60,472 nt of DNA, taken from contig CANISR010000005.1 in the NCBI GenBank assembly GCA_947470105.1, positions 1 to 60,472 of the forward strand, read 5' to 3'. Position 1 is the stretch's first letter, and every line of letters begins with the position of its first letter. The position numbers were made by a program, and so were the translations under genes. The DNA is from Fidelibacterota bacterium (GTDB lineage Bacteria > Pseudomonadota > Alphaproteobacteria > Rhodospirillales > Rhodospirillaceae). A model generated the notes under the pieces. It saw only the letters and a program-made list of their open reading frames with translations, was not told where the DNA came from and did not search any database. Below are positions 21,628-31,509 of the stretch, in pieces.

Positions 21628-21993
21628 TTGGTCGTGAACCCTGTTGTTCGCCTCCAGGACTACCGGTCTCATCCCGGGCGCAGGCCCCCCGCCCTGCACT
21701 TCACCCGCGCCGAACTCACCCGCCTGCTAGGCCTTTACGCGACCCGTGTGATCAAAGGCGAATGGCGCGACTACGCCATCTGCTCGGGGCCGGAATCCGC
21801 CAGCTTCATGGTGTTCAAGCGGTCCCACGAAAATCCCCAGTTCGTGATCTCCAAACTCGATAATGGCGCCCGCGGCCGGGCGCGCCAGGGGCGCTATGTG
21901 GTCACCAGCCGGGAGTGCAAACTCAGCCAAGGCCACTCGCTCGACGACGTATTGGCGGTGTTCAACCGTCCGCTCGGACTGGTCACGATATAA
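21628..21993 (+). CDS. DUF2794 family protein
   Basis: A 121-residue soluble protein whose core (FTRAELTRLLGLYATRVIKGEWRDYAI, then FMVFKRSHENPQFVISKL) matches DUF2794, a small family largely confined to Alphaproteobacteria; function is unknown. The start is TTG at 21628 (alternative GTG at 21634). It supports the taxonomic placement of the window. No terminator follows directly; the nearest intrinsic terminator, at 22177-22216, is better assigned to the candidate small RNA. Confidence 0.75.
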   Translation: MVVNPVVRLQDYRSHPGRRPPALHFTRAELTRLLGLYATRVIKGEWRDYAICSGPESASFMVFKRSHENPQFVISKLDNGARGRARQGRYVVTSRECKLSQGHSLDDVLAVFNRPLGLVTI

Positions 21994-22090: not shown

Positions 22091-22116
22091 GGAACATCGG
22101 ACCGGGTACCGCGTTT
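22091..22116 (+). promoter_or_regulatory. EcfG-type (general stress) promoter
   Basis: GGAAC (22091-22095), 16 bases, CGTTT (22112-22116). This is the exact consensus of promoters read by EcfG/SigT, the general stress sigma factor of Alphaproteobacteria. A start site would be expected near 22122. The next feature downstream is a structured, terminated, non-coding segment rather than a gene. Confidence 0.65.
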
Positions 22117-22121
22117 GGATA

Positions 22122-22216
22122 AGTGTTCTGGTGCGTCCCCAAGCCCCAACCCCCGGAGCAAGCACCGAACCCAACGCCCCTCCGCTGTCCCCCCCAGCGG
22201 AGGGGTATTTCTTTTT
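22122..22216 (+). ncRNA. candidate stress-induced small RNA with C-rich loops
   Basis: About 95 bases from the predicted start after the EcfG-type promoter to an intrinsic terminator. Hairpin 1 pairs GTTC-(T)-GGTGC (22125-22134, one bulged T) with GCACC-GAAC (22162-22170) and exposes a 27-base loop with three C runs (4, 4 and 5). Hairpin 2 is the terminator, with a loop of seven C. There is no credible ORF. Architecture and promoter type resemble Caulobacter GsrN, a SigT-dependent RNA that acts through a C-rich loop. C runs could pair with G-rich ribosome sites. Exact ends are predicted, not observed. Confidence 0.6.
22177..22216 (+). terminator. strong intrinsic terminator
   Basis: Perfect 11-base stem CCCCTCCGCTG (22177-22187) with CAGCGGAGGGG (22195-22205), a loop of seven bases that is almost all C, and the tail TATTTCTTTTT (22206-22216). 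The T tract is only on the plus side, so it ends rightward transcription, not that of the minus-strand methyltransferase at 22248. Confidence 0.9.
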
Positions 22217-22247: not shown

Positions 22248-22970
22248 CTACCCTAATTTCCGCAGCAGATCGACCCGCATGGGGCGCTGGAAATCCGCGC
22301 CCTTGGCCGTCATGTGCTGCTTCAACTGCTTCTCGATTGCCGCGCGCTGAACGGCATTGAGCCGATGTTGCGTATGGGTGGTGTTGATGAACTGGGCCTC
22401 GAAATCGGCGAAATCGTCCACATGCAGGGGGGTGAGAAAAAACTTCTCCGTCACGAGCGCCATGCCCCCTGAGGACACCGCTTCCTTGAGAGCTTCGAAG
22501 GCCGCCGCACGGACTTCGCGTTCATCGTGGAACAGGCGAATGATGGCGTTGAAGGCGCCCGCAAAAACGGGCTCGGCCACGTAGAGATGACCACCCGGAT
22601 GCAGCACCCGGCGCACTTCGCGCATGGCCTGGCCCATATCGCCGATCGGCACGTGATGCAGCGACATCATCATGAGGACGATATCCACGCTCTCGTCCTC
22701 GGCCGGAATGCGTTCGGCGCCGCCGGCAGCGAACTCCAGATTGGGTAATTGGGGGCCGGCAAGATTGGCGTCGAGCTGAACCGTGTCCACCTCGAGCGCC
22801 AAAACCGAAGCGCTCTTATGGGCCGTGGCGATGGCGCGGCTGACCGCGCCGGCGCCGCAGCCCAGGTCGATGACCCGCGCGTCCTTGAAGTCCAGCAGCT
22901 CTTCATAGACAGCGGTCGCGTCCAGAACCGGGGCGCCGCGGGGATCCCATAACTGCATGTTGTCGCTCAT
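22248..22970 (-). CDS. class I SAM-dependent methyltransferase
   Basis: A 240-aa methyltransferase of the UbiE/Methyltransf_11 type. Motif I VIDLGCGAGAVSRA is near residues 33-46, an acidic residue ending motif II (ALEVD) near 60, and a MMMSLHHVP plus VLHPGGHLYVAEP pair near 100-130. The substrate is unknown. It is a single gene, convergent with the candidate small RNA and divergent from no close partner. Confidence 0.88.
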   Translation of the reverse strand: MSDNMQLWDPRGAPVLDATAVYEELLDFKDARVIDLGCGAGAVSRAIATAHKSASVLALEVDTVQLDANLAGPQLPNLEFAAGGAERIPAEDESVDIVLMMMSLHHVPIGDMGQAMREVRRVLHPGGHLYVAEPVFAGAFNAIIRLFHDEREVRAAAFEALKEAVSSGGMALVTEKFFLTPLHVDDFADFEAQFINTTHTQHRLNAVQRAAIEKQLKQHMTAKGADFQRPMRVDLLRKLG

Positions 22971-24510: not shown

Positions 24511-26388
24511 GTGACCGTCGACTACACCGCCTCGAACGCATCCCTCCTCCAGATCCCTTTCCCGGTCGGCGGGGGCGAACTCGGCGAGCTCATCCGCGCC
24601 TTCGATTGGTCCAGGACCGGTCTCGGGCCCATCGCCGAATGGCCACAAAGTCTCAAGACCGTCACCAGCATGCTGTTGCAGTCACCGGTGCCCATCGTCC
24701 TGCTCTGGGGCGAAGACGGGGTGATGATTTATAACGACGCCTATTCTGGCTTCGCCGGCGGACGGCACCCCCAGCTCCTCGGCAGCAAGGTGCGCGAGGG
24801 CTGGCCGGAAGTGGCGGCGTTCAACGACAACGTCATGAAGGTCGGTCTCGCCGGTCGCACCCTCGCCTATAAGGATCAGGAGCTCACCCTCTATCGCCAC
24901 GGCAGGGCGGAGCAGGTGTGGATGAACCTCGATTACTCGCCGGTACAGGACGAAAGCGGTCGGCCCGCCGGCGTCATCGCCATCGTCGTGGAAACCAGCG
25001 ACCGCATCCGCGCCGAGCGCGCGCTTAACGCAGAGCGTGACCGCCTCACCACCCTGTTCGAGCAAGCACCGGGTCTGATGGCCATGTTGCGCGGACCGGC
25101 GCACATCTTCGAGCTCGCGAATCCGGCCTATATGCAGCTCATCGGTCATCGGGAGGTCATAGGCAAGCCGATCCGCGAAGCCCTGCCTGAGGTCGAGCGC
25201 CAGGGCTTTCCCGCACTGCTCGACGACGTTTACCGCACCGGCAGGGCCTATGTCGGCACGGCGACGCAAGTCCAACTGCAGCGTTCTCCGGATGCGCCGC
25301 TGGAGACCCGCGTCCTGGATTTTGTGTACCAGCCGGTCACCGACGCCGACGGCCGCACCACTGGAATCTTCGTCGAAGGCTATGACATTACCGAGCGCGC
25401 CACAGCCGAGAAGCAAGTGCGCGCCAGCGAGGAGCGCTTCCGCGCCCTGGTGACGGCCACCTCCGACGTCATTTACCGCATGAGCGCCGACTGGACGGAG
25501 CTGCAGACACTCGACGGACGCGGTTTCATTCCCGACACAGATAGCGCCTCCGTTGACTGGATGAAGGACTACCTGTTCCCTGAGGACCAGGCCGAGGTCC
25601 TGGCAACCGTGGACGAAGCGGTCCGCAAGCGCGGTGTCTTCCAAATGGAACACCGCGTACGACGGGTCGACGGAAGCGCGGGCTGGACATTCTCCCGGGC
25701 CGTGCCGATTTTCGGTGAGTCGGGTGAAATCCTTGAATGGTTCGGCGCCGCCAGCGACGTGACGGAACGCCATAAAGCCGAGGAACGTTTACGCCTGGTG
25801 ATCAATGAACTGAACCATAGGGTAAAAAACAACCTGGCCATGACCCAGGCCATCGCCGCCCAGACCTTCCGCCGCTCGGCCGATCTCACCGAAGCACAGG
25901 CGAACTTCACCGCGCGCATCCTCGCCCTCGCCCAAGCCAACGACCTGCTCACGGGCGAGCGGTGGGTGGGCGCTTCGCTCCGCGGCATCCTGGAACAGGC
26001 CGTGCGGCCACATTGCAGCGACGAAGCGCATCGCTGCGTTTTCGCGGGGCCTGAGGTTCACCTCTCGCCCAAAACGGCGCTGTCGCTCTCTATCGCGATG
26101 CACGAACTCGCCACCAATGCCCTGAAGTACGGCGCCTGGTCGACCCTTGGCACCGTCGCGATTACCTGGCGGATCTATGCTGAGGTCAACGGCAGTGAAC
26201 GATTGCACATGGAATGGCGGGAGAGCGGCGGCCCCACCGTGACACCGCCCAAGCACCGCGGCTTCGGTTCCCGGCTGATAGAACGTGGCCTGGCGGCCGA
26301 GATGGGCGGCAATGTCAAAATGCTGTTCGAGCCGGACGGACTGGTTTGCACCGTCGATGCGCCGCTCACCTTCCGGGCCGGCGAATGA
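24511..26388 (+). CDS. PAS domain HWE histidine kinase
   Basis: A 625-aa cytoplasmic sensor kinase without membrane segments. Three PAS/PAC-like modules fill residues about 20-420 (for example VIAIVVETSDRIRAERAL and GIFVEGYDITERATAEKQ). The kinase core has the phospho-His in VINELNHRVKNNLAM (near 434) and the HWE family WRE element in HMEWRESGGP; the classical F box is missing, as usual in this family. GTG start at 24511. Its stop overlaps the ATG of a single-domain response regulator, the probable partner. HWE kinases often feed the general stress response or light signalling in Alphaproteobacteria. Confidence 0.92.
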   Translation: MTVDYTASNASLLQIPFPVGGGELGELIRAFDWSRTGLGPIAEWPQSLKTVTSMLLQSPVPIVLLWGEDGVMIYNDAYSGFAGGRHPQLLGSKVREGWPEVAAFNDNVMKVGLAGRTLAYKDQELTLYRHGRAEQVWMNLDYSPVQDESGRPAGVIAIVVETSDRIRAERALNAERDRLTTLFEQAPGLMAMLRGPAHIFELANPAYMQLIGHREVIGKPIREALPEVERQGFPALLDDVYRTGRAYVGTATQVQLQRSPDAPLETRVLDFVYQPVTDADGRTTGIFVEGYDITERATAEKQVRASEERFRALVTATSDVIYRMSADWTELQTLDGRGFIPDTDSASVDWMKDYLFPEDQAEVLATVDEAVRKRGVFQMEHRVRRVDGSAGWTFSRAVPIFGESGEILEWFGAASDVTERHKAEERLRLVINELNHRVKNNLAMTQAIAAQTFRRSADLTEAQANFTARILALAQANDLLTGERWVGASLRGILEQAVRPHCSDEAHRCVFAGPEVHLSPKTALSLSIAMHELATNALKYGAWSTLGTVAITWRIYAEVNGSERLHMEWRESGGPTVTPPKHRGFGSRLIERGLAAEMGGNVKMLFEPDGLVCTVDAPLTFRAGE

Positions 26389-26744
26389 GCGCGGAAAAGG
26401 CGCTGCGCATTCTGATCGTCGAGGATGAGATGACGATCGCACTGTTGATGGAAGATATGCTCCTTGATCTTGGTCACGAGGTCGCCGGGATGGCCATGCG
26501 ACTGCCCCAGGCCCTGGAGTTAGCGGAAACTGCGGTCTTCGACATCGCCATTCTCGACGTCAATCTTGATGGCCGCATGTCTTTTCCGGTGGCTGACGTG
26601 CTGGCCGCGCGCGGCGTGCCGTTCCTGTTCTCCACCGGCTACGGCGCCGCCGGCGTCGATCCCGCCTACAGTGGGCGCGTCGTCATGAGGAAGCCCTTTG
26701 AGATTAAGGACCTTCAGAGTGCCATCGCGCGCGCCGCCCCCTAG
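26385..26744 (+). CDS. single-domain response regulator
   Basis: A 119-residue receiver domain with the acidic pair in VEDEM, the phospho-acceptor Asp in AILDVNLDG (about residue 57), Thr/Ser in FSTGYG and Lys in RKPFE. There is no output domain, so it either relays phosphate or acts by protein contact. The ATG overlaps the kinase stop (ATGA), indicating translational coupling. Confidence 0.93.
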   Translation: MSAEKALRILIVEDEMTIALLMEDMLLDLGHEVAGMAMRLPQALELAETAVFDIAILDVNLDGRMSFPVADVLAARGVPFLFSTGYGAAGVDPAYSGRVVMRKPFEIKDLQSAIARAAP

Positions 26745-30931: not shown

Positions 30932-31509
30932 GACAGATCGTCCAAGAGGATGCGCAGTTTCGACATGGCCAGGCGCAGGCGCGATTTCACAGTGCCCAAG
31001 GGAATCCCCAGGACCGCGGCGATGTCGCCGTGGGCTCGCTCCTGATAAAACGACAACTCGATCACCCGCTTCTGTTCGGCGGATAGTTCCTTGAGGGCCG
31101 CGCGGACGCGGGCGTCGGCTTGCTGGCCGGCCAGCACCGCGTCCGGCGTAGGAGCGCCGTCTATCAGAAACTCCGCATCGATGTCGCCGGCCCGCGCAGA
31201 CACACCGCGCTCACGGCGCAAGGCGTCGACGCGCAGATTGCGGGCGATGGTGAAAATCCAGGCGCCGGCGCCGGCCGTGGCAGGGTCGAACTGGGCGGCC
31301 TTGCGCCACACCATCAACAGTGTTTCCTGGGCCAATTCCTCGGCCGCAGCATCGTCCGCGCCCGACCGGCGCATGAAGGTCTTCACCCTTGGCGCGAAGT
31401 ATTCAAAAAGACGCGCGAACGCCGCCCTGTCCTGATGGGTGGCAACGGCGCTCAGACACTGCGACCATTCCTGGGGAGTCACCGGCTCACCGGCCATGGC
31501 TAAGCCCAT
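30928..31509 (-). CDS. rpoE: RNA polymerase ECF sigma factor (RpoE/ECF11-like)
   Basis: Sigma-70 family ECF factor with region 2 (LFEYFAPRVKTFMRRSG, then EELAQETLLMVWRKA) and region 4 (LSAEQKRVIELSFYQERAHGDIAAVLGIPLGTVKSRL, cited as its ends LSAEQKRVIEL and GTVKSRLRLAMSKLR). Length is 193 aa from ATG 31509; ATG 31497 is also possible. The frame is open to 31575, but that start would lie at or before the transcription start predicted from the promoter at 31610-31585. It is the first gene of the sigma-chrR-DUF1295 operon and likely drives its own promoter and three others nearby. Confidence 0.92.
   Translation of the reverse strand: MGLAMAGEPVTPQEWSQCLSAVATHQDRAAFARLFEYFAPRVKTFMRRSGADDAAAEELAQETLLMVWRKAAQFDPATAGAGAWIFTIARNLRVDALRRERGVSARAGDIDAEFLIDGAPTPDAVLAGQQADARVRAALKELSAEQKRVIELSFYQERAHGDIAAVLGIPLGTVKSRLRLAMSKLRILLDDLS

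Follow-up and report, generated by a model that had tools for sequence, protein, structure and literature searches.

A predicted small RNA with an EcfG-type promoter box and a C-rich loop, resembling GsrN in layout, behind a DUF2794 gene

The window, by which we mean the whole 60,472-nucleotide stretch of DNA that was analysed, carries the features collected in Table 1 in and around the gap between a DUF2794 gene and a convergent methyltransferase gene. A sequence-only reading of this DNA had described, in a gap between two genes, a promoter GGAAC-N16-CGTTT, a 9 bp stem with one bulge that exposes C4, C4 and C5 runs, and an 11 bp terminator with seven C and a T tract. The gap, its flanking genes (forward and reverse, respectively) and the promoter box are present, with GGAAC at 22091-22095, a spacer of 16 and CGTT at 22112-22115. 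The coordinates of the 5' stem were exact: 22125-22134 pairs with 22162-22170 through nine Watson-Crick pairs, U22129 is bulged, and the 27-base loop holds C4 at 22137-22140, C4 at 22144-22147 and C5 at 22150-22154. The terminator stem, 22176-22187 with 22195-22206, comprises the 11 Watson-Crick pairs and in addition a closing G-U; the seventh C of the run closes the stem and the loop is U plus six C. The 5' end of the RNA probably lies near 22122, about 7 nt past the -10 element.

Table 1. Features of the small-RNA locus (window coordinates).
Feature	Position	Strand	Basis
DUF2794 gene, upstream neighbour	21628..21993	+	PF10984, 71.6 bits
-35 element GGAAC, EcfG/SigT-type promoter	22091..22095	+	sequence; promoter 24/26 identical in G056
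-10 element CGTT, spacer 16	22112..22115	+	sequence
Predicted small RNA, about 90-95 nt	22122..22216	+	fold z -5.3; covariance models R1-R3
5' hairpin, 9 pairs, U22129 bulged, 27-base loop	22125..22170	+	fold; pair changes
C4/C4/C5 loop runs, putative seed for G-rich targets	22137..22154	+	unpaired probabilities
Intrinsic terminator, 12-pair stem, C-rich loop, T-rich tail (predicted)	22176..22216	+	prediction
Methyltransferase gene, convergent, downstream neighbour	22248..22970	-	PF08241, 70.8 bits

For the 95-nt RNA the predicted folding energy is -38.9 kcal/mol, whereas dinucleotide shuffles average -23.8 +/- 2.9 kcal/mol (z -5.3) and none of 200 does as well. The predicted mean unpaired probabilities of the C4, C4 and C5 loop runs are 0.79, 0.50 and 0.98; the middle run may be engaged in weak pairing inside the loop. 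The promoter box by itself is weak evidence since the window holds four GGAAC/CGTT boxes where 0.98 are expected, a count reached in two of 100 shuffles. The weight of evidence for the RNA lies in its conservation and in the copies found elsewhere.

A BLASTN search of 73 draft genomes of the family returned one other full copy, in G056, a member of the same genus, where it lies between the same two genes. Matches at E <= 0.1 occurred in eight of the 73 genomes, those besides the window and G056 being partial (17-46 bases). From promoter to terminator, the two genomes agree at 116 of 121 aligned bases (promoter 24/26, 5' hairpin region 55/56, terminator 37/39). This exceeds the identity of the flanking genes (857/1063, 81%; p 2e-6), which amounts to 287/354 in the DUF2794 gene and 570/709 in the methyltransferase gene, and also that of the rest of the gap (64/89; p 9e-7), namely 60/82 upstream of the RNA and 4/7 after it. 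Promoter, hairpin and terminator are conserved in G056 as one unit. The G056 copy retains all three loop C runs and lacks one A between runs; its terminator stem is kept, and the clear differences there are additional C's in the loop and the final part of the T tract. The two copies share a recent common ancestry. Conservation of the hairpins between relatives was an observation on which the sequence-only reading had staked its claim, and it is borne out.

The RNA is not a fixed companion of the DUF2794 gene, which was detected in 51 of the 73 family genomes. Among the 30 loci read in these 51, the RNA is present in two and G045 has a recognisable decayed remnant, with the promoter damaged and the hairpin gone; the gaps behind the 27 other DUF2794 genes read are without the RNA. 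At this locus the RNA is either young or easily lost.

Copies elsewhere were sought with three covariance models, the E-values of which are rough. The first, R1, was built from the two transcripts of the window and G056 with the promoter excluded and was run over 317 genomes of the order under strict filters, a part of the first-look candidates being scored. It matched at E <= 0.5 in 43 of the 317 genomes, at 57 places, of which 55 were outside the training set and 28 of these were read. The best two new hits within the genus, in G054 and G048, both have a perfect EcfG box right upstream; a hit in G196, from another family, falls between them in score (E 7e-7) and has no box. The second model, R2, was built from four sequences and run over 19 genomes of the genus, where 63 places outside the training set reached E <= 2; 26 of them were read, two of these shared with the R1 reading. 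This added three perfect boxes, one at a second copy in each of G054 and G056 and one at a copy in G057, and all three copies are within the five best hits. Non-training hits were read 54 times in all, at 52 distinct loci, and a perfect GGAAC-N16-CGTT box was found in five of these readings, always with a spacer of 16, where about 0.1 would be expected from the box density of the window multiplied by the scan width, or 0.01 by local density. Each of the five further copies is predicted to have the stem, C runs in the loop and the terminator. They adjoin genes other than those of the window copy and keep the same box and layout. In G054 and G048 (L072 and L074, about 1905-2267) the RNA is divergently oriented upstream of an apparent single-domain response-regulator reading, a setting different from the DUF2794 surroundings of the window copy.

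R1 hits outside the genus were considered as relatives. None of those read has a perfect box, L089 having a loose near-box, and they were taken for chance C-rich terminators. The third model, R3, with seven sequences, was run over 40 genomes (the window's own, 38 others of the family and one Brevundimonas) and gave E <= 0.05 in 31 of them; an EcfG box accompanies one of the 29 hits read, in G042 of another genus. In six family genomes E-values of 6e-8 to 1e-5 belong to hits without a box, and a Brevundimonas locus (L199) reaches E 7e-5 with R2, likewise without one. Since low E-values occur without boxes, at other C-rich terminators, model E-values alone were not used. The window RNA has the features by which the class was delimited in the genus, namely an EcfG box, a stem of 7-10 pairs, C runs in the loop, a terminator and compensatory changes, as it must by construction because it is one of the founding sequences.

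These observations bear on the idea that the feature is no more than the 3' end of the DUF2794 mRNA with its terminator, and that the promoter box arose by chance. The strand is the same, the terminator would also serve the DUF2794 mRNA, and chance boxes do occur, four being present in the window. However, the genes have diverged more than box and hairpin, copies beside other genes keep box and layout, and the 27 other DUF2794 genes read do without the RNA behind them, so that we consider this explanation improbable.

Base-pair changes point in the same direction as the conservation of the sequence. In the seven-sequence alignment 15 of 21 base pairs have changed on both sides and are still paired, a count that leans toward pairing, the alignment having been fitted to the structure, and that represents about five lineages because the seven rows hold two close pairs. 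Paired cells make up 98.6%, a value equalled in none of 500 shuffles, against 40-51% in slid controls. Within the 5' hairpin changes on both sides were seen at eight of the nine pairs across the seven sequences. Such compensatory changes fit an RNA structure and argue against a short protein gene, for example the open reading frame with a GTG start at 22123. Open frames do span the region and the first residues are similar in G056, but single-base insertions or deletions in the loop and before the terminator shift the G056 frame over the middle of the open reading frame; a coding function is extremely unlikely. The earlier claim of an RNA of about 95 nt with a stress promoter and a C-rich loop is in our view well supported by the conservation in G056, the boxed copies and the compensatory changes.

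The sequence-only reading had called the RNA GsrN-like, after the studied small-RNA example in the alphaproteobacterial general stress response. The GsrN paper gives the SigT elements as GGAAC and CGTT with a spacing of 15-17, to which the window box conforms, and describes GsrN as an RNA of about 100 nt that raises KatG by pairing of its C-rich loop with the leader of katG (PMC5869019). Its authors report BLASTN homologues in Caulobacteraceae only and position-based candidates in Rhizobiaceae and Bradyrhizobium; the typical place of GsrN is beside phyR/nepR/ecfG, C. crescentus being an exception (PMC5869019). We queried with Caulobacter PhyR and took the best 80 loci among the matches listed, mostly from Caulobacter, Phenylobacterium and Brevundimonas by title. 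A scan of the fetched loci for an EcfG box, a C run and a terminator led to an RNA downstream of phyR. The GsrN core GACGC(C)nGACTTGA is present in 66 of these best 80 phyR loci, and 34 of the 66 have the strict box; the EcfG-box test is conservative, since the strict box misses about half of the cases with the core. At the same positions, three examples of this phyR-locus RNA match the Rfam family RF01529 (CC3552). To judge by its location, promoter and C loop, RF01529 is very probably GsrN; our literature search under the name CC3552 found no relevant paper.

The window RNA shares with GsrN the EcfG/SigT box, of which the use as a promoter is inferred, a length of about 100 nt, an exposed C-rich 5' loop and an intrinsic terminator. 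It would be natural on these grounds to regard it as a sequence homologue, or orthologue, of GsrN/RF01529. We find this very unlikely. RF01529 has no match in the window at gathering, nor is it among the five matches to E 5, and it scored above the cut-off in none of the 317 order genomes (strict filters, 11 candidates scored per genome), the Caulobacter control being above it. Matches below the threshold occurred in 23 of the 317, including the window's genome at another place (contig C69, 21.6 bits). The GsrN core motif is absent from the window and from the other examined loci up to L123, and R2 has 34 matches in the 80 phyR loci of which not one falls on a GsrN core, the best, L199, lying elsewhere. 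Comparison of the 5' domain of the window RNA with that of one GsrN (L131) showed no similarity beyond chance, 1166 of 2000 shuffles scoring as well. Unlike the window RNA, a folded GsrN example has a longer outer stem, a single C run and a stable inner hairpin. As far as sequence tells, the window RNA is not GsrN by descent and is GsrN-like in layout: the earlier likeness stands for promoter, shape and exposed C runs and fails for ancestry, given the missing RF01529 match and core motif.

The likeness also fails for position. A typical GsrN lies at the stress locus and the window copy does not: phyR and nepR have no match in the draft genome of the window, so that neither is on its contig, and the best EcfG relative in the genome, an EcfG-type sigma factor, is encoded on contig C173 (L064:6510-7112, reverse strand; 54% identical to the EcfG of G045). 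By eye, this gene adjoins the end of an apparent clpA gene. In relatives it is a different C-loop RNA that lies beside the general-stress genes. On the phyR-ecfG contig of G056 an EcfG box, a C-loop hairpin and a terminator follow a response-regulator gene, which was matched in seven of the 19 genus genomes. An RNA of this kind stands directly behind the response regulator in five of the seven, namely G000 (the window's genome), G056, G048, G047 and G054, and is absent behind it in G045 and G057. Each of the five combines a perfect box with a conserved core and a terminator; their lengths are 95-102 nt. The gene phyR is on the same contig in G056, G048 and G047; it was not found in G000 or G054, and for that reason it is the response regulator that ties these two to the stress locus. 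The stress-locus RNA of G000 is on contig C201, of 6.2 kb, which ends about 0.3 kb further on, so the absence of phyR and nepR may well reflect a break in the assembly. Because its own genome has this second EcfG-box C-loop RNA, we regard the window copy as an extra, dispersed one. All genomes with RNAs of the window type (G000, G056, G048, G054 and G057) are among the seven with the response regulator.

The stress-locus RNA resembles the window RNA in its perfect EcfG box, outer stem, C runs and terminator, and differs by a conserved core of its own, in which an inner hairpin is clear. R2 matches two of these RNAs weakly (E 0.018 in G056, 0.09 in G047). In comparisons of the 5' domain of the window RNA with the five stress-locus RNAs, 38, 105, 303, 91 and 63 of 1000 shuffles were as good, a similarity so weak that a common origin is unproven. 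To our knowledge, from a limited literature search, there is no earlier report of C-loop RNAs of the window type or of the stress-locus type.

Two further genes in the window touch on the same system. At 24511-26744, some 2.3 kb beyond the RNA, a PAS/HWE histidine kinase is followed by an apparent single-domain response-regulator reading; kinases of the HWE type frequently signal into the general stress response. On the reverse strand, 30946-31398 reads as an ECF sigma factor, 33% identical to the EcfG of G045.

Rfam at gathering gave nothing in the window and nothing in the 11 loci with related RNAs. A permissive search of the window returned five matches below threshold, the best being sX13 (RF02232) with 27.3 bits against a gathering value of 50. 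The sX13 RNA of Xanthomonas is reported to have C4, C4 and C5 loops and to repress mRNAs that carry G-rich sites close to the start codon, and matching mutations failed to restore its action (PMC3771888). It shares the C4, C4 and C5 loop motifs with the window RNA and differs in distributing them over three hairpins, as well as in its score below gathering. A further parallel is offered by the putative GsrN-like RNAs of Rhizobiaceae, which were predicted from an EcfG box, a position at the general-stress locus, transcription and an exposed C-rich loop (PMC5869019).

Our analysis supports the idea that the locus is a gene for a trans-acting small RNA of the alphaproteobacterial general stress response, a reading that we consider quite probable, with transcription, EcfG control and target pairing inferred. 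PhyR, EcfG and DUF2794 point to an alphaproteobacterial source. Under stress, RNA polymerase with an EcfG-type sigma factor would start near 22122 and stop at the terminator near 22216. The 5' hairpin, of about 50 nt, would expose the C4, C4 and C5 runs, which could pair with G-rich sites in mRNA leaders or at ribosome sites, and the pairing would alter translation or stability of the targets, as GsrN does with katG in Caulobacter. By analogy, the window RNA likely exposes the same kind of seed as GsrN and sX13 and acts by stress-induced pairing. An RNA under EcfG control might instead act through its C runs as a sponge that binds a protein or a different RNA, and not as an mRNA antisense. The runs are found in both the hairpin loop and the terminator loop, and the latter varies in length. 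Nevertheless, GsrN and sX13, as known C-loop RNAs, are reported to act through G-rich mRNA sites, and we give the sponge a low probability.

We were drawn by the RNAs described here to a wider suggestion, which we advance tentatively and to which we attach a little less than even weight. The alphaproteobacterial stress sigma factor may recurrently control C-loop RNAs that are alike in function and not in sequence, as with GsrN of Caulobacteraceae on the one hand and the stress-locus RNA and the dispersed copies on the other. Promoter, C runs and terminator would persist while the rest turns over, and the several RNAs of one genome would regulate G tracts either redundantly or with a division of labour. 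RNAs that are unrelated in sequence and yet follow one promoter and loop logic, at the stress locus and dispersed, suggest that C-loop RNAs could belong generally to the stress response, and such RNAs would have to be sought by layout, not by BLAST. A testable rule for other genomes follows, in which an EcfG box is succeeded by a C-loop hairpin and then by a terminator.

Other hairpins were seen during the reading of hits. L105 (G046), L108 (G058) and L087 (G049) share a second hairpin family, GAACCGGCG-CCCACCGTCCCCCAACGAT-CGCCGGTT with a terminator, and have upstream a near-EcfG box, NGAAC-N16-CGTT, that is one base off; this is maybe another EcfG-driven C-loop RNA. L100 (G047), L116 (G048) and L103 (G051) contain a third repeated C-rich hairpin with a terminator, with no EcfG box in the stretch read. 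Finally, L238 (G064) and L245 (G009), from two other genera of the family, have a conserved CCACTGG...TCTCCCATCCCCCCAACAGCCTCCAGTGG hairpin with a terminator. No EcfG box accompanies it, and this may be a C-loop RNA that a different promoter drives.
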